In this document: one piece after another, positions 10,077 to 29,096 of the stretch | Numbering within the stretch: the stretch's first letter is position 1 | Layout of the letters: each line of letters opens with the position of its first letter | From: Deltaproteobacteria bacterium | Lineage (GTDB): Bacteria; Desulfobacterota; Desulfarculia; Adiutricales; Adiutricaceae | Assembly (NCBI GenBank): GCA_031264185.1 | Contig: JAISEL010000054.1 | Coordinates: 1 to 34,482 of the forward strand | Length of the DNA stretch: 34,482 nt | Reading direction: 5' to 3' | The notes under the pieces: model-generated | What the model saw: the letters and a program-made list of their open reading frames with translations, nothing else | Told to the model about the DNA's origin: nothing | The model's database searches: none | Position numbers and translations under genes: made by a program

Positions 10077-11147
10077 ATGAGCAAAGTCAAACGGAAAGTC
10101 ATGCTGGTCGACGATAATTTGACCAATTTAAATGTGGGCAAGAACGCTTTACTGGAACACTATGATATTCTTCCGGCCACCTCGGCCGAAAAAATGTTTA
10201 AACTTTTGGGACGGGTGACTCCGGATCTGATATTATTGGACGTGGAAATGCCGGAAATGGGCGGTTATGAGGCTATTAAAATCCTTAAATCCAACCCAGA
10301 GACAGCTTTTATACCGGTAATATTTTTAACCGCCATGATTGATCAGGAAAGCGAACTGGCCGGCTTATCTCTTGGCGCGGTGGACTATATAACCAAGCCT
10401 TTTGTCCAGACCTTACTGTTGAAACGGATTGAACTCCACCTGCAGCTGGAGGACTATAACCATAATTTAAAGAATATGGTCGAGGAAAAAACCAAGACCA
10501 TTTTGGAAATGCAGAACGCGGTTTTTGAGCTTTTGGCCGAGGTGGTTGAATATAAAGACGACGTGACCGGCGGCCACATCAGCCGCACCCAGAAGTATCT
10601 GCGGATTATGCTGGACGAACTCATCCGGCGGAGCATTTATTCTGAAGAGGTTTCGGCCTGGGATCCCCGGCTCATTGTTCTGTCTTCCCAGCTCCATGAC
10701 GTAGGCAAAGTGGCCATCAAAGACAGTCTTTTATTAAAAGAAGGCAAACTGACAGACGAAGAATTCGAGGAGATGAAGAAACACACCATTTACGGGGCTA
10801 AAATTATAGAAAAAATAGAATCCAATACGACCGGCCGGCAATTTATAGAACACGCCCGGCTCATGGCTCTGACCCATCATGAAAAATGGGACGGCACCGG
10901 CTATCCTTACGGATTGAAAGGCGAATCCATTTCCTTGGAGGGCCGTCTTATGGCCTTTGCCGATGTCTACGACGCCCTGGTCTCCACCAGGCCGTATAAG
11001 GCCCCTTTTTCTCACCCCGAGGCGGTCGATATCATCCGCCAGGGTCAGGGGACCCATTTTGATCCGGCTTTACTTGAGGTTTTTTTGGCCGTGACCGACA
11101 AATTCCTGGAAATCCGGCGGGATGAAAGACCGTCCGGTAAAGACTAA
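10077..11147 (+). CDS. Response regulator with HD-GYP domain (probable c-di-GMP phosphodiesterase)
   Basis: A 356-residue two-domain regulator. REC (about 6-122) has Asp-Asp at 12-13, phosphoacceptor Asp55 in LLDVEMP and Lys107 in the TKP motif. After a short coiled linker, the HD-GYP domain (about 145-345) shows HD at 207-208 (LHDVGK), HTIYG, HH at 267-268 and an intact GYP at 275-277 within HHEKWDGTGYPYGLKG. Intact HD-GYP proteins hydrolyse cyclic di-GMP, so phosphorylation probably controls c-di-GMP turnover. The ATG is fixed by the repeated leader. Two hybrid kinases follow on the same strand, the first after only 5 bp, making them its likely input. Confidence 0.93.
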   Translation: MSKVKRKVMLVDDNLTNLNVGKNALLEHYDILPATSAEKMFKLLGRVTPDLILLDVEMPEMGGYEAIKILKSNPETAFIPVIFLTAMIDQESELAGLSLGAVDYITKPFVQTLLLKRIELHLQLEDYNHNLKNMVEEKTKTILEMQNAVFELLAEVVEYKDDVTGGHISRTQKYLRIMLDELIRRSIYSEEVSAWDPRLIVLSSQLHDVGKVAIKDSLLLKEGKLTDEEFEEMKKHTIYGAKIIEKIESNTTGRQFIEHARLMALTHHEKWDGTGYPYGLKGESISLEGRLMAFADVYDALVSTRPYKAPFSHPEAVDIIRQGQGTHFDPALLEVFLAVTDKFLEIRRDERPSGKD

Positions 11148-11152
11148 AAAGC

Positions 11153-14008
11153 ATGGCAGACAACTCCAACAACCAGACTCCCGATTTCATCAAATCCAAA
11201 ACCGTTTTTGCGCTTTTTTTGGTGTCTGCGGCGGCGATCCTGATTTTTTCCGTCTACAGCCGGATTAAATTCGGAGAGCACCTGGCCTATGAGGAAAAGA
11301 ACTTAGTCGATCGCCTGATTTTAGCCAGCCGGATGGCCGCCGAACATGTTTCGGGCGAGGAGCTTAACAAGTACACAGTCAGGGAAGACATTGACCGGCC
11401 GGGGTACAAGGCTTTAAAGGATCGGCTGGTCAGACTGGCCGGGACGATGGATGTGGATTTCGTCTATTATTTCAGACAAACAGGCGACAAGATTCAGTAT
11501 ATTGTGGACAGCGACACAGATCCTCACACCAGCACCGGACTGCAGTGGGAACCGGTCGATCTTCAGGTGGAACAGGGTTTTGAGGGAGCATTGGCCGGGC
11601 AGGTCACCACCTCCGGCCGGGAACGTCACTCGGTCAACCGGTCCAATTCAGTCGCCTCTTACGCCCCGGTCTTTGACAGTCAGGGCAAAGTCGTGGCCGT
11701 GGCCGGGGTTGATTTGGACGGCGGCCACTTAAATAGCGCCGCCTTAATTATGACTGTCCTCACGGTTTTAATTATAGGGGCCGCAGTGGCCATCATTTTT
11801 TGCGGCTTTTATTTTCACCGCCAGTATGCCAGGGAAGTTCAGCAGGTCCGCCGGGCCGATCGGGCCAAAAGTCTTTTTCTGGCCAGGATGAGCCATGAGA
11901 TAAGAACGCCCATGAACGCCATAGTGGGACTTTCGGAACTTCTGATGCGTCAGGCTCAGAATCTCCCAACTCAGATCCATACGTATATCCGTAACATTAA
12001 GCAGGCCGGCGCCAATTTGCTGTCCATTATTAATGACATCCTGGATTTTTCCAAAATTGAATCCGGCAATTTTGAGATTCTGCCCGATCAGTACAGCCTG
12101 TCGATACTGGTGGATGATATTTTAAATATCATTAAAGTCAGGCTCCTGGAAAAGCCGGTCCGGATCATCATCTTTCTGGACAGCCGTCTGCCCGATCACC
12201 TGGTCGGCGACGCTACCCGGGTCAGGCAGATCCTTTTGAATCTTATGGCCAACGCCGTCAAGTACACCCGGGAAGGCTCAATTTCTCTTTCTGTGACCTG
12301 TCAGTCAATAGAAGATAAGGAACTGGTTTTAAAAGCTGAGGTGGCCGACACGGGTATTGGCATTAAGCCCGAGGATATGAGCCGCTTATTCGGGGATTTT
12401 ATTCAGCTGGACCAGGGGGAAAATAAAAATATTGAGGGCACGGGACTGGGTCTGGCTATTGCCCGCAACCTATGCCAGCTCATGGGCGGAGACATTAAAG
12501 TCAAAAGTGAGTACGGCCAGGGCAGCGTCTTTACCGTCACCCTGCCCCAGAAAATAGAAAATCCGGCTCCGGTGGCTGTGGTCGGCGGGGCGGACAAAAA
12601 AGCCGTGGTGGTCTTTGAAAGGCGGGCTATATACGCTCAGTCGCTGTCAGCTTCCCTGGAAAATTTAGGCGTGGGCTACTATCTGGTCAATAATTACCCC
12701 AAATTCTATGAAGCTCTGGGGGATTTTGAATATACCCACATGATTATGCCGGTCTCGGTTTTCATAGGCCTTCAGAACAGTTTAAAGGAAAGAAATATTA
12801 CCGTCCCGGTCGGCCTGACCACCGAAGATATCCATCCCTTTGGTCTGGAAAACGCCCGTTACCTTTTTACGCCCATCTACAGCCGCCCTTTAGCCGCCTT
12901 TTTAAATAACGTCCCCGATCAGCCGGAAAAACTCGAATACGGTCAGGGCCAGGCCGGGGCCAATTTTATTGCCCCCAGGGCCAGAATATTAATTGTGGAC
13001 GACCTGCCGACCAATTTAATGGTGGCCGAGGGCTTATTTTTCCCCTATGCCATGCGGATAGATCTTTGCCGGAGCGGCAGTGAGGCCATTAATCTGGTCA
13101 AAGATCATGAATATGACATGATATTCATGGATCATATGATGCCCGAGATGGACGGGGTCGAAGCTACCCGGCAGATAAGAGCGCTGGGCGAAAAATACCA
13201 GAAACTGCCCATCGTGGCCATGACGGCCAATGCGGTCTCGGGTATGCGGGAGATGTTTTTAAGTTTGGGTCTGGATGATTTTTTGACCAAACCCATTGAA
13301 ACGGTTATGCTTAACACCATCCTGCTGAGATGGATTCCTATAGACAAGCAGGAAAAAGTCCGGCCGGCCTCGGAGCAGAAAAATCTTCTGGCTCAGACGA
13401 CCATGGCTCTGCCCCGGATCGAGGGCCTGGATGTCACTTTAGGCCTGTCAAGGGCCAACGGGCAGAGGGAAGCTTATTTGACCACCCTGGAGTATTTCCG
13501 CAAAGACGCCTTAACGGCTCTGTCCAACTTAAACGCTTCACTGGAAGCCCGGGAGTATAAAAATTTTACGGTCCACATCCATGCCCTTAAAAGCGCGGCC
13601 GGGGTGACCGGAGCTGTCGATTTGGCGGCCAGAGCAGCCGCCTTGGAGGCCGCCTCCGTTGCCGGGGCCGAAGGCTTTATCGCCAGCAACATAGCTTCTT
13701 TCCGGCAGGATCTGATCCAGTTAATTGACGGTCTGACCAGGTACTTTGAGGAAATTAAGCTTGAGGCCCAGAATAAGCAGCAACTTGGCGATGAGGAAAT
13801 AAAAAAGGAACTGGCCTTATTGCGGCAATCCATTGCGACCATGGAAAGCGAGCATGTGGACCTGGCCCTGAAAAATCTTCTGGAAAGGAGCGCGGCCGGA
13901 GAACTGAAAAAAGATTTGGCCGAACTGGCCAGACAGTTTCAGGAATCCGGTCCGGAATCAGCGGCGGCTCTGCTGGACCGGATGCTGCCCCCGGATACAG
14001 TTCACTAG
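11153..14008 (+). CDS. Hybrid histidine kinase with REC and HPt domains (catalytically intact)
   Basis: A 951-residue membrane sensor kinase. Membrane segments at about 17-36 and 196-221 enclose a periplasmic sensor of PDC/Cache type. HisKA has the H-box MSHEIRTP with His248. The HATPase domain has the N-box LLNLMANAVKY (about 361-371), G1 ADTGIGI and G2 GTGLGLAIA (about 429-437). Residues about 482-590 look like a receiver fold without the acidic pocket. A true REC follows (Asp-Asp 616-617, phosphoacceptor Asp660 in FMDHMMPEMDG, TKP), and an HPt domain with His810 in HALKSAA. All phosphorelay residues are present. The ATG at 11153 has only a weak SD and is probably coupled to the HD-GYP gene. 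Confidence 0.9.
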   Translation: MADNSNNQTPDFIKSKTVFALFLVSAAAILIFSVYSRIKFGEHLAYEEKNLVDRLILASRMAAEHVSGEELNKYTVREDIDRPGYKALKDRLVRLAGTMDVDFVYYFRQTGDKIQYIVDSDTDPHTSTGLQWEPVDLQVEQGFEGALAGQVTTSGRERHSVNRSNSVASYAPVFDSQGKVVAVAGVDLDGGHLNSAALIMTVLTVLIIGAAVAIIFCGFYFHRQYAREVQQVRRADRAKSLFLARMSHEIRTPMNAIVGLSELLMRQAQNLPTQIHTYIRNIKQAGANLLSIINDILDFSKIESGNFEILPDQYSLSILVDDILNIIKVRLLEKPVRIIIFLDSRLPDHLVGDATRVRQILLNLMANAVKYTREGSISLSVTCQSIEDKELVLKAEVADTGIGIKPEDMSRLFGDFIQLDQGENKNIEGTGLGLAIARNLCQLMGGDIKVKSEYGQGSVFTVTLPQKIENPAPVAVVGGADKKAVVVFERRAIYAQSLSASLENLGVGYYLVNNYPKFYEALGDFEYTHMIMPVSVFIGLQNSLKERNITVPVGLTTEDIHPFGLENARYLFTPIYSRPLAAFLNNVPDQPEKLEYGQGQAGANFIAPRARILIVDDLPTNLMVAEGLFFPYAMRIDLCRSGSEAINLVKDHEYDMIFMDHMMPEMDGVEATRQIRALGEKYQKLPIVAMTANAVSGMREMFLSLGLDDFLTKPIETVMLNTILLRWIPIDKQEKVRPASEQKNLLAQTTMALPRIEGLDVTLGLSRANGQREAYLTTLEYFRKDALTALSNLNASLEAREYKNFTVHIHALKSAAGVTGAVDLAARAAALEAASVAGAEGFIASNIASFRQDLIQLIDGLTRYFEEIKLEAQNKQQLGDEEIKKELALLRQSIATMESEHVDLALKNLLERSAAGELKKDLAELARQFQESGPESAAALLDRMLPPDTVH

Positions 14009-14039
14009 GACAGCGGCTTAATCTCCGGAAAGACCTTTA

Positions 14040-17000
14040 ATGAACTGGCGTGAAATTTTAAAAGCCAACCGTTGGCAACTGATCTTTATCTGTTTGGCCT
14101 TTGTTTTGGCGATCGCCGTAGGCTGCCTGGCCGTCCGCCGGGTTCTGGACGTTGACACGAGCCGGCTGGTCTCCTTATTTCTGAACGATACCGAAAATTC
14201 CATTAAAACATATATCCACGAACCCCAGGTGGCTTTCAACAGCATCCAGGCGGGGGTCCGCAGCTTACTGGACCGAGGGGCCAGTTTAGACGAGGTCTTT
14301 GAATATCTTTACACCTGCAACGGTCTTTTGGTCGGACGGACGCGGGGAGTGGCCGGAGTCTACGGGATTTACGGGTTTTTTAAAGGCCGTTTTATGGATT
14401 CCATATCCCGAAGTACTCCGGGCCGGGATTTCATTATAGCCGAGCGTCCCTGGTACGCCGAAGCCATGAAAAGCCGCGATATTGTCTGGACCAATCCTTA
14501 CTTGGACTATAAAAGCCGCGATATGGTCATCTCAATTTCCCAGCAGGTTTTCGGGGCCAAAGGTGAGTGGTACGGGGTTCTGTCCATGGATCTGGGGCTG
14601 GCCTGGCTGGTGGACTATACCCGGGCCCTGGCCGACGAAGGCGGCCAGGGTATGCTCATTAACCATGAAGGGCAGATCATAGTTCATCCTGAAGAAGAGT
14701 TTGTCAGTAAGGCCATGAACCGGCTGGGCGGCGGTTATCCGGCTGTCTGGGAACTTCTGGCCGGAGGCGACGAGCTTTACGATTTGGCGGCCAAAGATCC
14801 GAGCGGCCGTGATATCCGGGTCTTTTTCCGTCAGATGTTTAACGGCTGGTACGTGGGGCTGACTGTCCCGGCCCGGGCATTTTCTATGGATTCATATATT
14901 GCCGCCGCTGTTCTGGCGTTTTCCGGCTTATTGCTGGCCGTTGTTTTGGGGCTGATAATTGTCCGCTTAAATTCGGCCAAAATCCGGCTGGAAAAAGAGA
15001 GCCGGGCGAAAACGTCATTTGTGGCCAACTTAAGCCAGGAAATAAGAACTCCCTTAAACGCCATTTTAGGCTTAAGCGAGATGCTTCTGCGTTTTGAGTC
15101 CCAGATTCCGCCCCAGGCTCTGGCTTATGCCAGGAACATCAAGAAAACCGGGGGGAATTTGCTCACCACCGTCAATGACATCCAGGATTTTACCCGTCTG
15201 GACTCGGGCTCTATTTCCTTCGGCGATGAGCCTTACACTTTATCGTCTTTAGTCAACGACTTAACTGTTCAGATCCGCGAGCGGCTTAAGGAAAAGTCCC
15301 TGGCTTTTACAGTCTTTGTGGACGCCAATCTGCCTAATTACCTCCGGGGTGATGCCCTTCGGATCCGCCAGATCTTGAATAATATTCTTTCCAATTCCGT
15401 CCGCTCCACTGAAAGAGGGTCCATTGGCCTGGAAGTCAGCGGCCAGTACCAGCCCGGCTCGCAGCTGGTTTTAACATTTACGGTTAACGACACCGGCATC
15501 GGCTACCGTTCGGAAGAACTGGGCTGGATCTATAAAGAACAGGTCAATTTGGACCAGGCCGTCCATCTGGTCGAAGGATTCGGTCTGAGTCTGGTCATTG
15601 CCCGAAAATTAGTCGATCTTCTGGGTGGCCGGTTAACTGCGGAAAGCAATTACGGCCACGGCAGCTCTTTTACAGTCGTCATTCCCCAGAAAGTCGTTAA
15701 ACCCGAGCCTTTAGCAGTCATCGACCGGGTCTCTGAGTTTTCTGTTTTAATTTACGAAATAAGGGCGGTTTATATAAAGTCCCTGGCGGCCTCTCTGGAA
15801 AATTTGGGTCTTTCTTTCCGGGTGGCCAGCGAAGAAGGGCATTTTCTGGAAATGCTGGACCAGGGCTATTCCCACATAATTATGCCGGCTTTAATTTACT
15901 CGGCTTTAAAAACGTTCATGGCTGAAAAAAATGTTACCGCCCGCATAGCTTTAACCGATCGGGATATTCACCGGCCCGGGGGACGGAATTTTTACTACCT
16001 GCAACTGCCGGTCTACAGCCTGACTTTAGCCAATTTTTTTAATAATACGGATTTTTTTGACGGTCAGGAGCCCGTGGCCCTTAATTTTGAAGTCAGTTTT
16101 CCCCAGGCTCAGATTCTGGTCGTGGACGATCTGCCGACTAATCTGGCTGTGGCCGAAGGGTTGCTTAAATCTTATCTGGGCAGGGTGGATCTGTCCCCCA
16201 GCGGCCGGCAGGCGGTCGAGATGGTCCAGGAAAAAGCCTATGATTTAGTCTTTATGGACCACATGATGCCCGATATGGACGGGGTGGAAACAACTTCCAG
16301 GATCCGTTCGCTGGCCGGCGAGCCGTTCAGAAAACTGCCCATCATAGCTTTAACGGCCAACGCCGTTTCTGGCATGAAAGAGATGTTTTTGGCCAACGGG
16401 TTTAATGATTTTCTGGCCAAACCCATTGAAAAAAATAAGCTGGAGGAAGTCTTATTGCGCTGGCTGCCCCGGGAAAAACAGACTTTCACCGAAAGTCCCG
16501 GTGCGGCTCAGTCTGCCGGGCCCCAGAGCCTGCCGGAAATTCCAGGTTTAGATACAGTCCGGGGTCTGGCCATGACCGGGGGGCAGAAAGAAGGCTACAT
16601 TAAAATACTTAAGATTTTTGTAGACGATGCCCGGCAGTATCTGGCTCTTTTGAAAGAGGCCCTGGATAAAGGCGACTGGCCGAAATTTACCATTGAGGTT
16701 CATGCCTTGAAAAGTTCCGCCAGTACGGTCGGGGCGGTGGCTCTTTCGGAGGCGGCCCGCAAATTGGAAGAAGCCGGCCGGGCCGCAGACGAGCCCTTTG
16801 TGGATCTGAATTTTGAGATATTCCATGAAGACATGCTCTTGCTTTTAACCCGCCTGGAGCATTATCTCGCAGGTCTTTCGGCCTCGGCCAGGGGTCAGTC
16901 CTTTTTAAGCCCCGCCGAGATCGTCGGTGAGCTTAAGGCTTTAAGGAGGGCTTTTGATGAAACGGACGGCGGAGCCATTGACAGCATTATTACCCGTCTT

Positions 17001-17135
17001 TCGGAAGAAAGGCTTAGTGAGGAGCTGCGTCAGGATGTGGACCGTCTGGCCCGCCATTTTCTGGAAGTGGAGTATGATGAGGCCATCGCTTTAATTGATA
17101 TACTCATAAACGGCTATCAAGATGACCGCCCCTGA
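14040..17135 (+). CDS. Hybrid kinase paralogue with degenerate kinase core (pseudokinase), REC and HPt intact
   Basis: A 1031-residue paralogue of the preceding kinase in the same domain order. Membrane segments at about 14-33 and 286-309 flank a longer dCache-type sensor containing ERPWYAEA and TNPYLDY. The H-box reads LSQEIRTP, so the phosphoacceptor His is Gln333 (CAG at 15036-15038). The N-box NNILSNSV and G1 NDTGIGY remain, but the ATP-lid G2 box GTGLGLAIA has become GFGLSLVIA (514-522). The receiver-like region (about 565-672), REC with Asp740 and HPt with His888 (HALKSSA) are kept. It may act as a sensor partner or phosphorelay acceptor for the intact kinase. Its last 14 bp overlap the permease gene. 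Confidence 0.88.
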   Translation: MNWREILKANRWQLIFICLAFVLAIAVGCLAVRRVLDVDTSRLVSLFLNDTENSIKTYIHEPQVAFNSIQAGVRSLLDRGASLDEVFEYLYTCNGLLVGRTRGVAGVYGIYGFFKGRFMDSISRSTPGRDFIIAERPWYAEAMKSRDIVWTNPYLDYKSRDMVISISQQVFGAKGEWYGVLSMDLGLAWLVDYTRALADEGGQGMLINHEGQIIVHPEEEFVSKAMNRLGGGYPAVWELLAGGDELYDLAAKDPSGRDIRVFFRQMFNGWYVGLTVPARAFSMDSYIAAAVLAFSGLLLAVVLGLIIVRLNSAKIRLEKESRAKTSFVANLSQEIRTPLNAILGLSEMLLRFESQIPPQALAYARNIKKTGGNLLTTVNDIQDFTRLDSGSISFGDEPYTLSSLVNDLTVQIRERLKEKSLAFTVFVDANLPNYLRGDALRIRQILNNILSNSVRSTERGSIGLEVSGQYQPGSQLVLTFTVNDTGIGYRSEELGWIYKEQVNLDQAVHLVEGFGLSLVIARKLVDLLGGRLTAESNYGHGSSFTVVIPQKVVKPEPLAVIDRVSEFSVLIYEIRAVYIKSLAASLENLGLSFRVASEEGHFLEMLDQGYSHIIMPALIYSALKTFMAEKNVTARIALTDRDIHRPGGRNFYYLQLPVYSLTLANFFNNTDFFDGQEPVALNFEVSFPQAQILVVDDLPTNLAVAEGLLKSYLGRVDLSPSGRQAVEMVQEKAYDLVFMDHMMPDMDGVETTSRIRSLAGEPFRKLPIIALTANAVSGMKEMFLANGFNDFLAKPIEKNKLEEVLLRWLPREKQTFTESPGAAQSAGPQSLPEIPGLDTVRGLAMTGGQKEGYIKILKIFVDDARQYLALLKEALDKGDWPKFTIEVHALKSSASTVGAVALSEAARKLEEAGRAADEPFVDLNFEIFHEDMLLLLTRLEHYLAGLSASARGQSFLSPAEIVGELKALRRAFDETDGGAIDSIITRLSEERLSEELRQDVDRLARHFLEVEYDEAIALIDILINGYQDDRP

Positions 17136-18216
17136 GGCTTATCGGAGCGGATTTAGGCCGGGCAAGCTTTTTGGACTGGCCTTTTTTTTAGTATTTGCCT
17201 TGCTCTTTCTGAGCTGGGAATCGGTCAGCCGTGGCTATATGGATGTCAGTGCCCGGGAGATCTGGGAGGTTCTGAAAGCGGTCTTAAACGGCGAGGCTTT
17301 AACCTCCCCCGGTTCTTTGGTTGTCTGGGAAGTAAGGCTGCCGAGGCTGGCCGCTTCTTTGGCCGTAGGCGCGGCTTTGGGTTTATCCGGGGCCATTTTT
17401 CAGGGACTGCTGTTAAATCCCTTAGCCGATCCCTATACTTTAGGCGTCTCTTCCGGGGCGGCTTTAGGGGCGGCGGCGGTCATATCGGTCAGCATTGTCC
17501 GGCCCATTGAACTTGTAACATTGAAATATTTTGGCGTAATTTATCTGCCGGCTCCTTTTATCCCTGCGGCTGGCGCTTTCTTCGGCGCCGGATTGTCTTT
17601 GGTAGCCGTTATGGCTCTGGCCCGCGAGAAAAACGGTTCCCTGCCTCCGACCAACCTCATCTTAGCCGGAGTTATAATGTCGGCTATTTTATCGGCCGCC
17701 CTGTCTTTTCTGAAATATCTGGCCGGCGATCAGGTCAGTTCCATCATATTCTGGCTGCTCGGCAGTTTTGTGGCCAGGACCTGGGCCGATTTTTGGGTGG
17801 TGATCATATTTTTCCTGCCAGCCTTTTTCGTGGCCATGTTTTCGGCCCTGGATTTGAACATTATGACCTTGGGCCTGAAAGAAGCAAGAACTTTGGGGGT
17901 ATCCACGGAAAAAGTCCGTTTTAGGCTTCTGGTGGCCGCTTCCCTGTCTGCCTCGGCTGCGGTGGCCGTGTCGGGCATAATCGGTTTTGCCGGTCTTATT
18001 GTGCCCCATCTGATAAGATCAATCATCGGGCCGGATCACCGAACGCTGCTGCCTTTTTCAGCTCTGGCCGGGGCGGTGCTGCTGGCCGCCGCCGACTGGA
18101 CAGTGCGGGTTCTTTTGCCGGGTGAGATTCCGGTGGGTGTTTTCACGGCTCTTTTGGCCGGGCCGGTTTTTCTGATCATTTTCCGGCGCAAGATGCGGGA
18201 GCCGGGCCGTGTCTAA
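17122..18216 (+). CDS. FecCD/BtuC-family ABC permease
   Basis: Multi-spanning permease (364 residues, about ten helices) of the iron-siderophore/heme/vitamin B12 uptake class. Family hallmarks are VRLPRLAASLAVGAALGLSG, FQGLLLNPLADPYTLGVSSG, the GFAGLIVPHLIRSIIGPDHR segment and the LPGEIPVGVFTALLAGPVF end. The ATG at 17122 lies inside the end of the second kinase gene, so translation is probably coupled. The substrate (ferric complex, heme or corrinoid) cannot be fixed from sequence, so I give no symbol. Confidence 0.92.
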   Translation: MTAPEAYRSGFRPGKLFGLAFFLVFALLFLSWESVSRGYMDVSAREIWEVLKAVLNGEALTSPGSLVVWEVRLPRLAASLAVGAALGLSGAIFQGLLLNPLADPYTLGVSSGAALGAAAVISVSIVRPIELVTLKYFGVIYLPAPFIPAAGAFFGAGLSLVAVMALAREKNGSLPPTNLILAGVIMSAILSAALSFLKYLAGDQVSSIIFWLLGSFVARTWADFWVVIIFFLPAFFVAMFSALDLNIMTLGLKEARTLGVSTEKVRFRLLVAASLSASAAVAVSGIIGFAGLIVPHLIRSIIGPDHRTLLPFSALAGAVLLAAADWTVRVLLPGEIPVGVFTALLAGPVFLIIFRRKMREPGRV

Positions 18217-20431: not shown

Positions 20432-23400
20432 ATGAATTTGATAATAAATCAGTTGTTTACTAATAGTTTCTTTAATAAAGGCATCTTTGAGTTTTTACCG
20501 GAGATTTCTGATATTAATTTTAGATTTAGCTTTTGCTTAAAGTTACTTTCAGATAATAATTTACATAATTACGATCTTAATCGCTTAAAAAAAAATATTA
20601 TACTGCCAATAGCGACTGAATTGGGTTGGTCAATAAGTTTCGATCCTCTTAAAACGGCTGACTCGCCGGCGGAAAACCTGACTGTCCTCTATGTTCAAAA
20701 ATCAAGTCTTATTTTATATGCCCGGCCCTACAGCCTGAGTTTAGACAATAAGACCGCCTCCAAAATCCAGAACCCTTATTTCTCCCTCCTTTCCTCTCTT
20801 GAACTATTAAATATGCCCTGGGGTATTCTGACCGACGGCGGACAATGGTGTCTGGTTGCCAGTAAAGGTCCTCCGGGCCGGAAGAATTTTTTGGCTTTCA
20901 ATTTGGAAAAAATTCTGTCAGCAGGGGACAGTCAGGCCTTTTTTCTCTTTTGGTCTTTGTTCCGAGCCGCTGTCCACGTAAAGGAAAACCAAAAGTCCCT
21001 ATTAAGTTTTTTGGCCGATTCAGACCGGAACAGCTTAAATCAGGCCGAAAAGGAGCTGACCGACCTCATAGACGGTTCAACCGGGTCCTGCCTTCTGGAA
21101 GAAATAGGCCAGGCTCTGTTCCGCTCAGAACCCGAAAAAGGGGAAGACAGTTTAGGGACTGTTCTGGAATTGAGTCTCTACTTTATTTTCCGGCTGATTT
21201 TCCTGGCTCATTTTGAAGACCGCCATCTGGCCGTGCTTTCTGATTTACTGGGCCGGCCTTTAAACACTTTGCGGGGCATTTTATGCCATCTTAAAACGTC
21301 TCCTGAGGCCTATAAGGGCTGGGACAGTCTTCTGTCTCTTTTGTCCGCTCCGGCTACACCTGAAGACAGAGCCGCAAAACCTCTGCAGGCCACCGGTTTT
21401 TTTGAACCCCGTAAAACCCCGCAGCTTTTCCGGCCGGGACAGATAAACGATCATGATTTGAGCAGGATTTTAAAGACTCTTTTAAACAGGCCCGGAGGAG
21501 GGATCAGGGATTTTTCAGACTTCAGTCCGGCCCGCCTGGGAGCTGTTTACGAAAATCTGCTGCAGTTTCAGTTTCGGGTGGCTAAAAGCCCTCTGGTGTA
21601 CGCTGTTAACGTCCGGGCTGCCCCTAATTCGGACCGCTACTTTAATTTAGCTGACTTGGAAAAGCTCAAAAGCCGGAATCAATTCGCGAGAATTAAGATC
21701 TTAAGGCAGTACCGGCCCGGAGATCTGTATTTGAAGAGAGTTTTGAATGACCGGAAAACCAGCGGCACTTACTATACTCCAGAGATACTGGCCCGGCCTC
21801 TTTCGGCTCGGGGGATTGACCGGCAGCTGGCCGGCGGCTTTTTAAATAAATCATTGACAGAGTTGCGTATCCTGGACTGTTCCTGCGGCAGCGGCAATTT
21901 GCTTATAGAGGCTTTGGATAATCTGACCGAAAAAGCTTTAAACAGATTAGACCGCGACCCTGGGTTGAAAAAGGCTCTGGAGGCGGAAATTCAGACCATA
22001 AGAAATTCTCTGCTGAAAGCCGGGGTGCCGGAGGCAAATATTAATATTGATGAATTTTCGGCCTTAAAGAGGCTTTTATTAAAAAGAACTATTTTTGGAG
22101 TCGATCTTTCTTCCTGGGCAGTGGAATTGACCAGGACGGCTCTTTGGCTGGAAACTTACATTGAGGCCGCCGAACTGCCTTTCATTGAACACAGGGTCAA
22201 AGAAGGCAACAGTTTAATGGGCACGACCGCTGCGGCTTTAGGTGAGTTTGCGGACAAAGCCGGTTTAATCCCCGGGCCCGGAACCTATTCTGAGATTCTG
22301 AAGAACATCAAAAAAGACCTGAGGGAGTTAAATGATAGCCATCCCCCGGAAAGTGAAGGATACAAAGAGGCTTATTTGCGGCTCGTCCGGCCTTTGGACC
22401 TGATTAATAAAGTTCATTTAAATCTTTTGAATTACAGCCATGTCCTGGAATTATCCCAGAAGTCTGAAGCTGCCCGGGTACTGGAAATTTTAAAGTCCTG
22501 CCTGCGGAATACCGGCCCCGATTCCGACGGAACTGTCTTAAACCGGGCTGATGATTTCCGGCGCCGGTTAGGGTTTTTTAATTGGGACCTGGAATTTCCG
22601 GAAGTATTTTTGAGTCAGGATTTTTCCGATCCGGGTTTTCATATTTTGATCGGTAATCCGCCCTGGGAAAAAACGAAGTTTGAAGAGCCTTTGTTCTTTG
22701 CTCAGTATCAGCCTAATTACCGGACCTTGAGTAATGCCCAAAAAAGGGAGCTTGGCCGGCTGCTTCTGGCCGACGGTCATATCCTGTCCAAATATAATGA
22801 AAATAAGGCTTTATTTGCTTTAAAGAATGATTATCTCAAAGCCAGATACCCTTTAAACTCCGGTTCCGGGGACGGCAATCTGTTCCGTTTTTTTGTAGAA
22901 AGAGGCCTGGAATTATTGGCTGCTGGCGGCAGTCTTAACTATATTGTGCCTACCGGTCTTCTGACTGAGGACAATTCCGCAGCCTTAAGACGCCATGTCC
23001 TGGAAAATTACCGGCTGAACTGTTTTGATGGATTTGAAAATCGGCGTCTTATTTTTCCGGCCGTGGACGGGCGGTATAAATTCGGGCTTATTCAAATCGA
23101 AAAAACTTTTGATCCCCGGCAGACAGCCAGAACTAGGTTCATGATAAACGATCCTGAGGTCTTGGAAACCACCGACGGGGTTTTTGATTACTCCCTGGGC
23201 GATGTCCGGGCCACCTCGCCTAAGTTCTGGGCCTATCTGGAAGTGGCGGGCGGCGAAAAGGACCTGAAAATCCTGAGGCGTCTTTATGAATCTTTTCCCC
23301 CCCTGTCTTCGGACTGGCTTGATTTTACCAATGAACTCCACGCCACTCAGGACAAGAGCATTTTCCGGGAAACTAAAACTCCCGGCTGCTACCCTCTGTA

Positions 23401-24256
23401 CAAAGGGGAAATGATCCGCCATTATCAGGCTCAGGCCGCACCCCCCAAATACTGGCTTAGGCCTGAGGAGTTTGATAATTATTTACTCAAAAAGGAAGTC
23501 GCTAAATTAAAAAGAGATCTTAGACTTCAGTTTGCCCTGGAGACGGATTTCAGGCCGGCTGCCTTCCGAAGCATTGACTGGCCTTTGGTTTCATCTTTAT
23601 TGGACATACCGGATGAAAGTCTGGCCGACTTCATTTGCCCGGGACATAGTTTTATCCGTTTGGGACTCAGGTCCATTGCCAGGGATACCAATGAGCGGAC
23701 TCTGGTGGCTTCGCTTCTGCCTCGGCAGGTTGGAGTCCAAAATTCCATGCTGGTCTCCGTGCCGGGCCGCTATGTTTTTAATTCAGCTAAAAAGACAGTC
23801 GGGTATGAGGCCGTCAGTTTAAAAAGGCTTCTTTTGGCGCAGGCTCTTTATAACAGTCTGCCTGTGGACTGGCTGCTAAGAGCCTCGGTCAATATGAATG
23901 TCAGTAAAACCTATTTGATCCGGATTCCTTTGCCTCAGCCCAGTGACGGAGAGATTAGCCATAATTCTCTTTACCGGGCTATGATCCGCGATTCGGCTCT
24001 TTTGACCTTATATAACACTCCGGCTCTTTTCCCGGAGCTTAAGTCTTTGGTTGGCCCGGATGAATCGGCCTCTTTAACCTCTTATGAACAGTTTTTAGAG
24101 TGTAAAGCGGCTGTGGATGTGAAAGTCGGCCGGCTTTACGGCTTAGAGCCGGAGATTTTGCTCTATTTTTTGGACAGCTTTCAGGTCTTGAAAGCTAAAC
24201 AGCCCGAATTTGTCGAGGTCTTGAAAAAAACGGTTCAGGCCGGGGCCGGAAGATAA
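20432..24256 (+). CDS. Eco57I-like adenine-specific DNA methyltransferase (type IIG-like) with degenerate nuclease region
   Basis: A 1274-residue protein with the layout of type IIG restriction-modification enzymes. The methyltransferase core has a GTYYTPEILARPL segment, the AdoMet motif LDCSCGSGNLL (about residue 480), FGVDLSSWAVELTRTALWLE and the catalytic NPPW (742-745), followed by a long target-recognition-like part. The N-terminal 150 residues resemble the usual nuclease domain up to LLNMPWGILTDGGQWCLV. Where D...ExK is expected the protein reads LILYARPYS (93-101), so cleavage is probably lost. The first 200 bases are clearly more AT-rich than the rest. No separate restriction gene is nearby. 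It could be a solitary modification enzyme or part of a phage-defence system whose other genes lie elsewhere. Confidence 0.82.
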   Translation: MNLIINQLFTNSFFNKGIFEFLPEISDINFRFSFCLKLLSDNNLHNYDLNRLKKNIILPIATELGWSISFDPLKTADSPAENLTVLYVQKSSLILYARPYSLSLDNKTASKIQNPYFSLLSSLELLNMPWGILTDGGQWCLVASKGPPGRKNFLAFNLEKILSAGDSQAFFLFWSLFRAAVHVKENQKSLLSFLADSDRNSLNQAEKELTDLIDGSTGSCLLEEIGQALFRSEPEKGEDSLGTVLELSLYFIFRLIFLAHFEDRHLAVLSDLLGRPLNTLRGILCHLKTSPEAYKGWDSLLSLLSAPATPEDRAAKPLQATGFFEPRKTPQLFRPGQINDHDLSRILKTLLNRPGGGIRDFSDFSPARLGAVYENLLQFQFRVAKSPLVYAVNVRAAPNSDRYFNLADLEKLKSRNQFARIKILRQYRPGDLYLKRVLNDRKTSGTYYTPEILARPLSARGIDRQLAGGFLNKSLTELRILDCSCGSGNLLIEALDNLTEKALNRLDRDPGLKKALEAEIQTIRNSLLKAGVPEANINIDEFSALKRLLLKRTIFGVDLSSWAVELTRTALWLETYIEAAELPFIEHRVKEGNSLMGTTAAALGEFADKAGLIPGPGTYSEILKNIKKDLRELNDSHPPESEGYKEAYLRLVRPLDLINKVHLNLLNYSHVLELSQKSEAARVLEILKSCLRNTGPDSDGTVLNRADDFRRRLGFFNWDLEFPEVFLSQDFSDPGFHILIGNPPWEKTKFEEPLFFAQYQPNYRTLSNAQKRELGRLLLADGHILSKYNENKALFALKNDYLKARYPLNSGSGDGNLFRFFVERGLELLAAGGSLNYIVPTGLLTEDNSAALRRHVLENYRLNCFDGFENRRLIFPAVDGRYKFGLIQIEKTFDPRQTARTRFMINDPEVLETTDGVFDYSLGDVRATSPKFWAYLEVAGGEKDLKILRRLYESFPPLSSDWLDFTNELHATQDKSIFRETKTPGCYPLYKGEMIRHYQAQAAPPKYWLRPEEFDNYLLKKEVAKLKRDLRLQFALETDFRPAAFRSIDWPLVSSLLDIPDESLADFICPGHSFIRLGLRSIARDTNERTLVASLLPRQVGVQNSMLVSVPGRYVFNSAKKTVGYEAVSLKRLLLAQALYNSLPVDWLLRASVNMNVSKTYLIRIPLPQPSDGEISHNSLYRAMIRDSALLTLYNTPALFPELKSLVGPDESASLTSYEQFLECKAAVDVKVGRLYGLEPEILLYFLDSFQVLKAKQPEFVEVLKKTVQAGAGR

Positions 24257-24293: not shown

Positions 24294-25403
24294 GTGTCTT
24301 TTTCCCGCGGACAAAAGCAGCTGGCCGCTATTTTATTGACTGTTGCGGTCTTAGCCTTTTTGGGCCTGGCCTCAAGGGGGCGGAACAGCTCTAAATACCG
24401 GAGCCTCAAACAGGATACGTCGGCCGGTCTTTTTGTCCGGCTTCCCCAAAAAAACTATACCGAAATAACCGATGCGGCCGGGAGAACTCTGGCTTTAGTC
24501 CCGGCCGGCAGCCCTCGGCCGGAAGGGTTTTCTCCGGTCCGGACCATTCGCATTCCTCCCAGGCGGGTGGTGGCGGCTGCGGGTCAGTTTGATGTCGGCC
24601 TCATAAGCGGGCTGGGTTTTGGGCGCTCAGTCATAGGAGTGACTGAAAAAAAAGAAAAATGGCATCTTTCCGAGATAAAAGAAGGCCTGGAGTCGGGTCG
24701 GGTGACGTTTTTAGGCTCAGAAACGGCTTTGGACTATGAAAGACTCAGGACTCTGGAGCCGGATCTGATTTTAAGTCCTGGCGGCCGGGCCGGTACTTTT
24801 CTGGAGCAGCTGGATTGGCCCGCCATTCAGACTTATACTCCCAAAATTAACGATCTGACCGTGAGGCTTAAATTTGTGGATCTTATGGCCGCAATTTTTC
24901 AGCGCCCGGAGGTTGCGGCCAGTTTCCGGCAGAATCTGACAGCCGCAGTAGATGAAATCCAAAGAAAAGTCGGTTCAGCTGAACCTACCCCGGTCATGTG
25001 GGTCTACGTCGGAAGCAGAAATTTTTACGTTGAACCGGGCAATAACTGGGTTGGGGAGATAGTCAGCCAGATAGGAGGGGATTATCTTTTTTCCAAAACC
25101 CTAGGCGATTCCACAGTCCCGGTGACGACTGAATATTTTTTAGACCAAGGCAGCCGGGCTGTTGTCATGATCGTTTATCCTTTTTCGGAGCAGGTTTTTC
25201 CGGACAAAAAAGCTCTTTTAAAGTTCAATTCCTATTTGCAAAAAATAGAAGCTTTAGGTACTGGCGGCCGGGTTTACGCAGTTAATTCCATTTTTTACCA
25301 GTCCTTTGGCCGTTTGGATGAAATTGTCCGGGAGCTGGCGGCTATTTTACATCCGGAAATTTTTGCGAACCAAAAGCTGCTTTTTTTTCGGGAAATCAAA
25401 TAG
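24294..25403 (+). CDS. Second metal-complex ABC transporter binding protein (BtuF/FhuD fold), membrane-anchored
   Basis: A 369-residue substrate-binding protein with an uncleaved-looking N-terminal helix (about 9-27) and no lipobox Cys. The fold markers are RRVVAAAGQFDVGLISGLG, VTFLGSETALDYERLRTLEPDLIL, GNNWVGEIVSQIGGDYLF and RVYAVNSIFYQSFGRLDEIVRELA. The start is GTG at 24294 with AGGAGG ending 4 bases upstream; the overlapping ATG at 24292 is out of frame. It begins 37 bp after the methyltransferase. It probably once belonged with the FecCD-type operon upstream, with the methyltransferase gene inserted between them. The ligand is unknown. Confidence 0.82.
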   Translation: MSFSRGQKQLAAILLTVAVLAFLGLASRGRNSSKYRSLKQDTSAGLFVRLPQKNYTEITDAAGRTLALVPAGSPRPEGFSPVRTIRIPPRRVVAAAGQFDVGLISGLGFGRSVIGVTEKKEKWHLSEIKEGLESGRVTFLGSETALDYERLRTLEPDLILSPGGRAGTFLEQLDWPAIQTYTPKINDLTVRLKFVDLMAAIFQRPEVAASFRQNLTAAVDEIQRKVGSAEPTPVMWVYVGSRNFYVEPGNNWVGEIVSQIGGDYLFSKTLGDSTVPVTTEYFLDQGSRAVVMIVYPFSEQVFPDKKALLKFNSYLQKIEALGTGGRVYAVNSIFYQSFGRLDEIVRELAAILHPEIFANQKLLFFREIK

Positions 25404-25816: not shown

Positions 25817-26236
25817 ATGTTAATTACCCTGTTTGTGGGGAATTATCCTTATGAAACTCAGCCAGCTGAACTATTGGCCGTTTTTTCTCGTTTCGGCCGG
25901 GTGGATTCGGTCAAGCTTATAAGCGATCAATTGACCGGCCGGTCCAAGGGTTTTGGCTTTATTAAAATTGAGGAGTCGGCCGGCCGAGCTGCCATTAAGG
26001 CTCTCCACCGGGCTGATTTTTCCGGACGCCCTTTAAATGTTCGGGAAGCGGGTCCCGTCCGGCGGGAGATTACTTTGGCTGACAACCGAGAAATCGGTAA
26101 TGGGTTTTCGCCAGCTCCCCTAGAGTCGGAAGCGTTTGTTCAAAATTACTGGCAGAATCAAGGGCCTCAGCTTTCCTCAGTCGGCTTGAAACGTCAGACT
26201 TCTTATAACCAGTGCAGATCAATCATCCCCAGCTAA
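25817..26236 (+). CDS. RRM-domain RNA-binding protein, first copy
   Basis: A 139-residue protein with one RNA-recognition motif at residues 3-80. RNP2 is LFVGNY and RNP1 is RSKGFGFIKI, with the aromatic residues that stack on RNA bases present. The C-terminal 60 residues are polar and without a known domain. Small single-RRM proteins of this kind occur in cyanobacteria and several other phyla, where some are cold-induced; that role is only suggestive here. The ATG at 25817 has a weak SD. The RRM domain is about 60 percent identical by eye to the protein at 28737, so the two are paralogues. Confidence 0.88.
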   Translation: MLITLFVGNYPYETQPAELLAVFSRFGRVDSVKLISDQLTGRSKGFGFIKIEESAGRAAIKALHRADFSGRPLNVREAGPVRREITLADNREIGNGFSPAPLESEAFVQNYWQNQGPQLSSVGLKRQTSYNQCRSIIPS

Positions 26237-28736: not shown

Positions 28737-29096
28737 ATGATTGATTTATTCGTTGCCAACTTTCCTTATGATACCAAGCATATTGAATTAATGACCATTT
28801 TTTCCCGCTTCGGCGAGGTTGAATCGGTCAAAATCATCACCGACCATTTTACTGGTTTCTCCAAGGGATTCGGTTTCGTCAGAATGGAGAAAGAGGCCGG
28901 CCAAGCGGCTATAGCCGCTCTGAATATGGCTAATTTTGGCGGCCGGGCTCTGACCGTCAGAGAGGCTTTACCGCTGCCTCCTAAGAAAATGGGTTCGGCA
29001 GATGTTGACTTGCAACCCCGGGCCAGGCGGTTTGAACCCAGTTATGGGGAGTCATCCTATGAGCCCAGGGAGAGAGAGTACGTTTACCGATATTAG
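28737..29096 (+). CDS. RRM-domain RNA-binding protein, second copy
   Basis: A 119-residue paralogue of the protein at 25817. One RRM (about 2-77) has RNP2 LFVANF and RNP1 FSKGFGFVRM, then a short tail rich in Arg, Tyr, Glu and Pro ending in YVYRY, which differs fully from the first copy's tail. Such charged Tyr/Arg tails often add non-specific RNA contacts. The ATG at 28737 has AGGGG about 7 bases upstream, a better SD than the paralogue. A strong hairpin at 29155-29194 follows. Confidence 0.9.
   Translation: MIDLFVANFPYDTKHIELMTIFSRFGEVESVKIITDHFTGFSKGFGFVRMEKEAGQAAIAALNMANFGGRALTVREALPLPPKKMGSADVDLQPRARRFEPSYGESSYEPREREYVYRY

Follow-up and report, generated by a model that had tools for sequence, protein, structure and literature searches.

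Bacterial histidine pseudokinases are known chiefly from single cases (DivL, RcsD). Here we analyse a 34,482-base contig (JAISEL010000054.1; the whole stretch is called the window), one of 166 in a 97% complete, 4.4-Mb assembly from the family Adiutricaceae, in which a gene for a receiver (REC)-HD-GYP regulator is followed by two adjacent hybrid kinase genes: HK1, with intact motifs, and HK2, which appears to be a pseudokinase. The nearest described system in logic is RcsC/RcsD/RcsB of enterobacteria, in which an active hybrid kinase is encoded near a membrane-bound, kinase-like histidine phosphotransfer (HPt) relay protein with a degenerate ATPase; in the accessible text of PMC5651002, phosphate passes from RcsC His479 to Asp875, then to RcsD His842 and RcsB Asp56, and RcsD is given as lacking autophosphorylation. 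The nearest in domain set is RpfC/RpfG of Xanthomonas, a hybrid kinase with REC and HPt domains and a REC-HD-GYP regulator (available part of PMC3749722). A literature search on the kinase pair itself turned up no paper, an absence that holds for that search only.

As in RpfC/RpfG, HK1 (with REC and HPt) adjoins the REC-HD-GYP gene at 10077-11147; the difference is that there are two kinases here, one apparently dead, with dCache-type or short sensors between two membrane spans. A general Pfam scan returned no rpfF-like match among the 16 window proteins, and no search aimed at rpfF was made. HK2 shares with RcsD a kinase-like domain without the H-box His and the presence of an HPt, but it is not an RcsD, because RcsD has no HisKA match and no receiver and carries an ABL domain (PF16359), whereas HK2 keeps HisKA and a fully conserved REC and has no ABL domain. 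RcsC in turn lacks an HPt by Pfam where HK1 has one, and the Rcs output is a DNA-binding regulator rather than a REC-HD-GYP protein.

Three further systems join two kinases or a kinase and a pseudokinase. EspA/EspC of Myxococcus is the nearest parallel for one hybrid kinase acting on the receiver of another, EspA phosphorylating the EspC receiver (PMC4320627, in the text available). HK2 differs in having lost its acceptor His and ATP lid, and HK1 and HK2 lie side by side, each with an HPt. EspC can autophosphorylate in vitro. DivL of Caulobacter, the reference pseudokinase, resembles HK2 in its replaced H-box His, lost ATP site and retained fold, and partners an active hybrid kinase (accessible parts of PMC4211667 and PMC12189002); the latter source also describes RetS/GacS of Pseudomonas, paired hybrid kinases of which one modulates the other through a heterodimer. 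HK2 keeps REC and HPt domains, a difference from DivL that argues for a relay over pure allostery. DivL is not known to have a REC or an HPt. Among solved structures, RetS and GacS both rank near the top of the matches to the model of HK2, a protein that has lost the acceptor His and ATP lid.

Kinase decay in HK2

HK1 and HK2 are 43% identical over 719 residues, and the HisKA, HATPase_c and receiver matches exceed their Pfam cut-offs in both, making both structurally hybrid histidine kinases (HisKA 68, HATPase_c 99, REC 84 and Hpt 27 bits in HK1; 52, 61, 85 and 49 bits in HK2). HK1 has the H-box His (His248, codon CAT) and the intact ATP lid, or G2 box, of a functional histidine kinase; all its motifs are present and it departs from none of 71 near-invariant kinase positions (0/71). 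HK2, by contrast, falls outside that functional class, with Gln333 (codon CAG) in the H box, a G2 box reading GFGLSLVIA and 22/71 departures. An earlier reading of the window's letters (the original prediction) had proposed just these two changes beside an intact neighbour, with REC Asp740 and HPt His888 retained; all of this holds, down to the residue numbers, and the catalytic degeneration proves broader than it claimed. Among the other changes are one next to the N box (K455R), three in the F region (I489Y, F498Y, F501Q) and two in the lid (T514F, G517S). The HK2 receiver also keeps Thr772 and Lys794.

Departures were counted in a 33-row alignment containing HK2 residues 300-1031, HK1 and 31 kinases taken from named records (one, L172, from the same family), a near-invariant column being one with at least 90% agreement among the other rows. 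HK2 departs at 12/34 such positions in the dimerization and histidine phosphotransfer (DHp) domain, 10/37 in the catalytic and ATP-binding (CA) domain, 0/41 in REC and 2/12 in HPt, or 22/71 in DHp/CA versus 2/53 in REC and HPt pooled, and the remaining 32 rows, scored leave-one-out, show 0-6 departures per 71-74 kinase positions. Among 129 family hybrid kinases scored alike, HK2 is the largest kinase-minus-REC outlier. An AlphaFold model of residues 300-1031 has a mean predicted local distance difference test score of 81.9, with the CA core at about 90 or higher and values of 52-74 in the ATP lid; its REC and HPt are well formed. Foldseek ranks ShkA first against this model, followed by GacS and RetS, with DivL (4q20) at rank 44. 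Departures so confined by domain, together with the modelled fold, mark HK2 as a folded pseudokinase, in prediction, with intact-looking relay domains.

As read from the alignment, the decay of HK2 is confined to the kinase domain and is neither a point mutation nor a sequencing error, because 22 kinase positions are altered in an open frame (14040..17135, no internal stop). An error in this metagenome-assembled contig could draw on the division of the genome into 166 contigs and on CAG lying one base from CAY. We find it hardly conceivable and reject it, since the kinase positions are changed coherently and a comparable loss occurs in a second genome, independent of this one. The original prediction had also held that relatives with an intact His would indicate a recent mutation or sequence error; such relatives exist, but the implication fails, because so many positions have changed and not one or two.

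That HK2 is instead an active kinase of unusual chemistry, with another acceptor residue or a tolerant ATP lid, is a very remote prospect. Both N-box Asn residues and the G1 motif DTGIG are present, and one study is reported to have labelled RcsD with ATP (PMC3762810, in the part available), but the lid and F-box residues are lost (T514F, G517S, F498Y, F501Q) and the H box offers no alternative His.

The cassette in relatives

Among 37 genomes of the family Adiutricaceae, HK1-type genes occur in 7 (9 genes, E = 0) and HK2-type genes in 6 (the window genome, G015, G025, G028, G031 and G034), and the two form a tandem pair, with the HK1-type gene upstream, in the window, G015 and G025. A tree built by maximum likelihood from 59 kinase cores, the G014 gene described below not among them, recovers an HK1 clade of 9 rows (support 100/97) and an HK2 clade of 5 rows (support 98/87). 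In G015 it is the upstream, HK1-type gene that is broken (RISQEIRAP, GPWLGL) and the HK2-type gene that is intact; both kinases of the G025 pair are intact, as is the HK2-type gene of G028. The HK2-type genes of G031 (split across two contigs) and G034 keep the His, and in both the N box has become LFVSLK and the G2 box GTQAGL. The tree thus holds three independent kinase losses in the cassette (window HK2, the G015 upstream gene and the G031/G034 ancestor), with the G014 gene, as far as known, a fourth outside it. The original prediction had looked for conserved loss of His and G2 box in one partner only. Loss instead recurs and switches sides among relatives, and G001 and G002 have no HK2.

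In G001 and G002, which belong to the same genus as the window, the order is phoU, HK1, FecCD, with neither an HD-GYP gene nor HK2 between. In G029, G025 and G015, related kinases have an HD-GYP gene upstream that is 65-66% identical to that of the window. We infer an old unit of HD-GYP gene and kinase, followed by duplication of the kinase and later by the loss of different parts in different lineages; alternatively, the window species may have acquired the HD-GYP gene and HK2 around HK1.

Two side features of these loci were seen. Between the two G015 kinases lies a gene for a Bmp/PnrA-like substrate-binding lipoprotein (L050:10902-12086), a possible ligand-presenting partner. In G031 the pseudokinase HK2-type gene is preceded by a gene for a receiver-only protein of 134 amino acids that resembles the front of the HD-GYP regulator (L214:1405-1806), so that kinase and output both appear lost at this locus and relay parts kept. 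The tail end of such a receiver-only gene lies upstream of the HK2-type gene in G034.

H-box and relay residues across the family

Searching the same 37 genomes with a DNA pattern for the H box, in which the acceptor codon was varied, returned 471 sites with His at the acceptor position and 2 with Gln, namely window HK2 and the upstream tandem gene of G015. Both Gln sites fall in the same tandem cassette, in opposite partners. Given the window site, the chance that the second Gln would hit any of the 5 remaining cassette genes is 1.1%, or 1.7% if 8 genes are counted, lone HK2-type genes included; both values are post hoc. Acceptor codons beginning with A, G or T gave 2 sites, one of them a real kinase (G014:C288) and the other, G006:C111, rejected as an H box since it sits in a 42-codon frame; codons beginning with CC, CG or CT gave none. 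The G014 hybrid kinase (936 amino acids) has Phe for the H-box His and has lost the N, G1 and G2 boxes, with REC Asp and HPt His kept. This gene (L212:1595-4405), for a further pseudokinase of the HK2 sort, has a REC-HD-GYP gene downstream (L212:5690-6802), after a 1.3-kb gap.

A census of kinases covered 123 family loci and the window (L001-L018, L036, L049-L085 and L208-L274), overlapping or duplicate loci (L019-L035, L037-L048, L086-L113 and L194-L207) being left out. The sample is not random, as loci were taken for their resemblance to HK1, to HK2 or to the HD-GYP gene; it includes 60 regions around HD-GYP matches, among the matches listed. Of 144 kinase matches, 126 gave near-full rows, and the H-box His is absent from three of these (window HK2, the G015 upstream gene and G014). 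Where the position could be mapped, 125/125 rows keep the receiver Asp and 103/105 the HPt His. Two kinases mirror HK2: their kinase motifs are intact, but the aligned HPt position lacks a His (L001:4869-7793 in G000:C65, and L068:2-3682 in G019). L069 (G006), whose G2 box is poor, was excluded from the counts because its H box lies beyond the contig end.

Adjacent same-strand kinase pairs number 20 in these loci, 3 of them cut or artefactual and 17 uncut. The His is lost in 2/3 cassette pairs versus 0/14 uncut tandem pairs outside the cassette, where 12 pairs have all motifs intact and 2 (L220, L221) differ only in the first G2-box Gly. Decay as a general outcome of tandem duplication is therefore an insufficient explanation. 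Nor was H-box loss found more widely: across 80 loci of named genomes, the H box was covered in 96 of 97 kinase matches and the His present in 96/96; the three rows flagged there were two cut genes (L114, L185) and a gapped G2 alignment (L131).

Selection and branch lengths

The ratio of nonsynonymous to synonymous substitution rates (dN/dS), calculated by the Nei-Gojobori method with our own script for the HK2-type genes of G031 and G034, is 0.142 in the sensor, 0.065 in DHp, 0.088 in CA (135 codons), 0.230 in the REC-like stretch, 0.121 in REC and 0.196 in HPt, at dS of 0.45-1.14. With the CA value so low, this kinase domain, which has lost two ATP-site boxes, is by codon comparison under purifying selection. 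Measured on a fixed tree, the HK2 branch is 0.796 for CA and 0.284 for REC, a CA/REC ratio of 2.81 against 1.35 for the whole tree; the ratio is 3.34 on the G031/G034 stem, 0.92 for the broken G015 gene and 0.39-2.35 for other tips.

The broken G015 kinase may be on its way out, given that low ratio, 9/41 REC departures and the loss of the receiver Thr (MAAQ for MTAN). The G014 gene likewise departs in 13/41 REC columns, and with these two counts we dropped the idea that a broken partner always keeps a perfect receiver. The wider decay in both genes fits a reading in which HK2 is turning into a pseudogene, as a redundant copy in which the kinase drifts first and the rest would follow, as do the same-genus relatives without HK2 at the locus and the long HK2 branch (0.76-0.82). 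We nevertheless judge this quite improbable: the 1031-codon frame is intact with 0/41 REC departures, whereas drift would be expected to reach every domain; purifying selection acts on the G031/G034 pseudokinase; and other tandem pairs in the family are undecayed.

Proposed relay

An intact REC-HD-GYP gene precedes the kinase pair, by Pfam and by motifs, in line with the original prediction, which took the HD-GYP regulator as the output of a pseudokinase fed by its active partner. The regulator, HK1 and HK2 genes lie on the plus strand with intergenic gaps of 5 and 31 bases. We give about an even chance to a relay role for HK2 in the manner of RcsD or EspC, as a pseudokinase that adds a dCache input and receives phosphate from HK1 within an HD-GYP operon of the RpfC/RpfG type. 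The operon (10077-17135) would then be a phosphorelay of HK1 and a REC-HD-GYP phosphodiesterase, which HK2 joined by an old duplication, as read from the tree. HK1 would autophosphorylate on His248 and pass the phosphoryl group to its own Asp660, to HK2 Asp740 or to both, in a mixed assembly or by collision, from where it would move to HPt His810 (HK1) or His888 (HK2), then to Asp55 of the HD-GYP regulator, altering cyclic di-GMP (c-di-GMP). The HK2 dCache domain would gate whether the HK2 REC/HPt branch carries or drains phosphate, making HK2 a second input unable to start the relay alone. Gene order, the set of domains, the lost kinase residues, the kept relay residues and the recurrence are observed, and complex formation, the direction of phosphate flow, the sign of the effect and the c-di-GMP output are steps we infer; c-di-GMP is a plausible currency because the genome encodes GGDEF proteins (4 matches).

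Several observations weigh against this relay. HK1 has a REC and an HPt of its own and could drive the HD-GYP regulator without HK2, and G001 and G002 keep HK1 without HK2. The HPt of HK2 is only 34-36% identical to those of relatives, and the broken G015 partner decays in its receiver too. No HK1-type gene was found in G028, G031 or G034 (87, 82 and 74% complete), where the best other match has at most 46% identity, so the pair is not obligate; the contigs start 328 (G028) and 270 (G034) bases before the HK2-type gene, leaving the upstream neighbour invisible there. As window HK2 has no close orthologue on which selection could be measured, selection on it is read from the contrast between domains.

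Two other modes of action would also assign HK2 a function. In the manner of DivL, HK2 might carry no phosphate, its DHp instead docking a phosphorylated receiver or HK1 and switching HK1 between kinase and phosphatase modes. Its DHp/CA fold is kept with the active site lost, DivL is among its structural matches, and DivL itself is described as having neither kinase nor phosphatase activity and as sensing phosphorylated DivK (text available from PMC4211667). We consider this unlikely: it leaves unexplained the 0/41 receiver versus 22/71 kinase departures, and it is mainly the conserved receiver that leads us to prefer a relay.

HK2 might otherwise act as a sink or dominant negative that turns the output off, draining HK1 or the HD-GYP regulator through its intact REC and HPt, or poisoning HK1 in a heterodimer, much as RetS acts on GacS, which it inhibits by forming heterodimers, by siphoning and by dephosphorylation (PMC12189002, accessible portion). 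In G031 and G034 a receiver-only gene, not an HD-GYP gene, precedes the HK2-type gene, as a sink would allow. This too seems distinctly unlikely, since the DHp domains of HK1 and HK2 are just 49% identical, so that heterodimers are not assured, and the sign of any effect is unreadable from sequence.

Sensor, C-terminal region and neighbouring genes

MCP-like_PDC_1 also matches the HK2 sensor, above its Pfam cut-off. Placed by eye, R136-P-W138-Y139 and D184 of this sensor resemble the dCache_1AA amino-acid motif, for which the available text of PMC10104139 names Y121, R126, W128 and Y129 in PctA; at the place of PctA Tyr121, HK2 has Phe131. The G029 kinases (L049, L054) carry Y-x4-RPWY. Past the HPt, HK2 has a modelled four-helix C-terminal stretch (window 16911-17120, residues ~958-1027) that aligns in HK1 and most relatives and matches no Pfam family.

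Feature coordinates are collected in Table 1. The receiver Asp55 of the HD-GYP regulator was placed from LLD at residues 53-55, and we take the HHEKWDGTGYP of this protein to be the HD-GYP motif. Promoter and terminator scans across the operon gave nothing usable. Further along the window, an Eco57I-type restriction-modification methylase of 1274 amino acids (20432-24256, Pfam) sits between metal-transport groups, with FecCD, ABC and binding-protein genes before it and a Peripla_BP_2 gene (24294-25403) after. Two small RRM_1 (RNA-recognition-motif) proteins are encoded at 25817-26236 and 28737-29096, within a stretch of ~25.8-30.8 kb that otherwise has few long open frames.

Table 1. Features of the kinase locus, in window coordinates
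Feature	Coordinates	Strand	Evidence
REC-HD-GYP response regulator, 356 amino acids, likely output; Asp55, HHEKWDGTGYP at residue 267	10077..11147	+	Pfam Response_reg and HD_5, motifs
HK1, intact hybrid kinase, 951 amino acids; two membrane spans, HisKA-HATPase-degenerate REC-like stretch-REC-HPt	11153..14008	+	Pfam, motifs, alignment
HK1 H-box His248, codon CAT	11894..11896	+	Sequence reading
HK2, putative pseudokinase hybrid, 1031 amino acids; dCache_1-DHp(Q333)-dead CA-REC-like stretch-REC-HPt-C-terminal helices	14040..17135	+	Open reading frame, Pfam, alignment, model
HK2 dCache_1 match, residues 116-273; 43.4 bits, below the Pfam cut-off of 45	14385..14858	+	Pfam
HK2 codon 333, CAG (Gln) at H box	15036..15038	+	Sequence; DNA pattern match 15018-15052
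HK2 broken G2 box GFGLSLVIA, residues 513-521	15576..15602	+	Sequence, alignment
HK2 receiver Asp740	16257..16259	+	Sequence, alignment
HK2 HPt His888	16701..16703	+	Sequence, alignment
FecCD permease gene; overlaps HK2 end by 14 bases; context, outside the relay	17122..18216	+	Open reading frame, Pfam

Implications

An annotation of 'hybrid histidine kinase' can conceal a protein unable to phosphorylate itself. In this gut-bacterial family the same gene pair seems to yield pseudokinases independently in three lineages, twice through His-to-Gln replacement. We tentatively propose, with somewhat less than even confidence, that an HD-GYP-linked kinase pair repeatedly becomes a driver and a relay pseudokinase, the partner that loses its kinase differing by lineage. 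The affected side is downstream in the window, upstream in G015 and, by another route, again the downstream type in the G031/G034 ancestor. How a paralogous kinase turns into a relay or sensor partner can be tested directly here, with an intact pair in one relative and a dead domain measurably under selection in others. If the proposal is true, the cassette would be a natural replicate series for the origin of RcsD-like proteins, with G025 as a living ancestor-like state.

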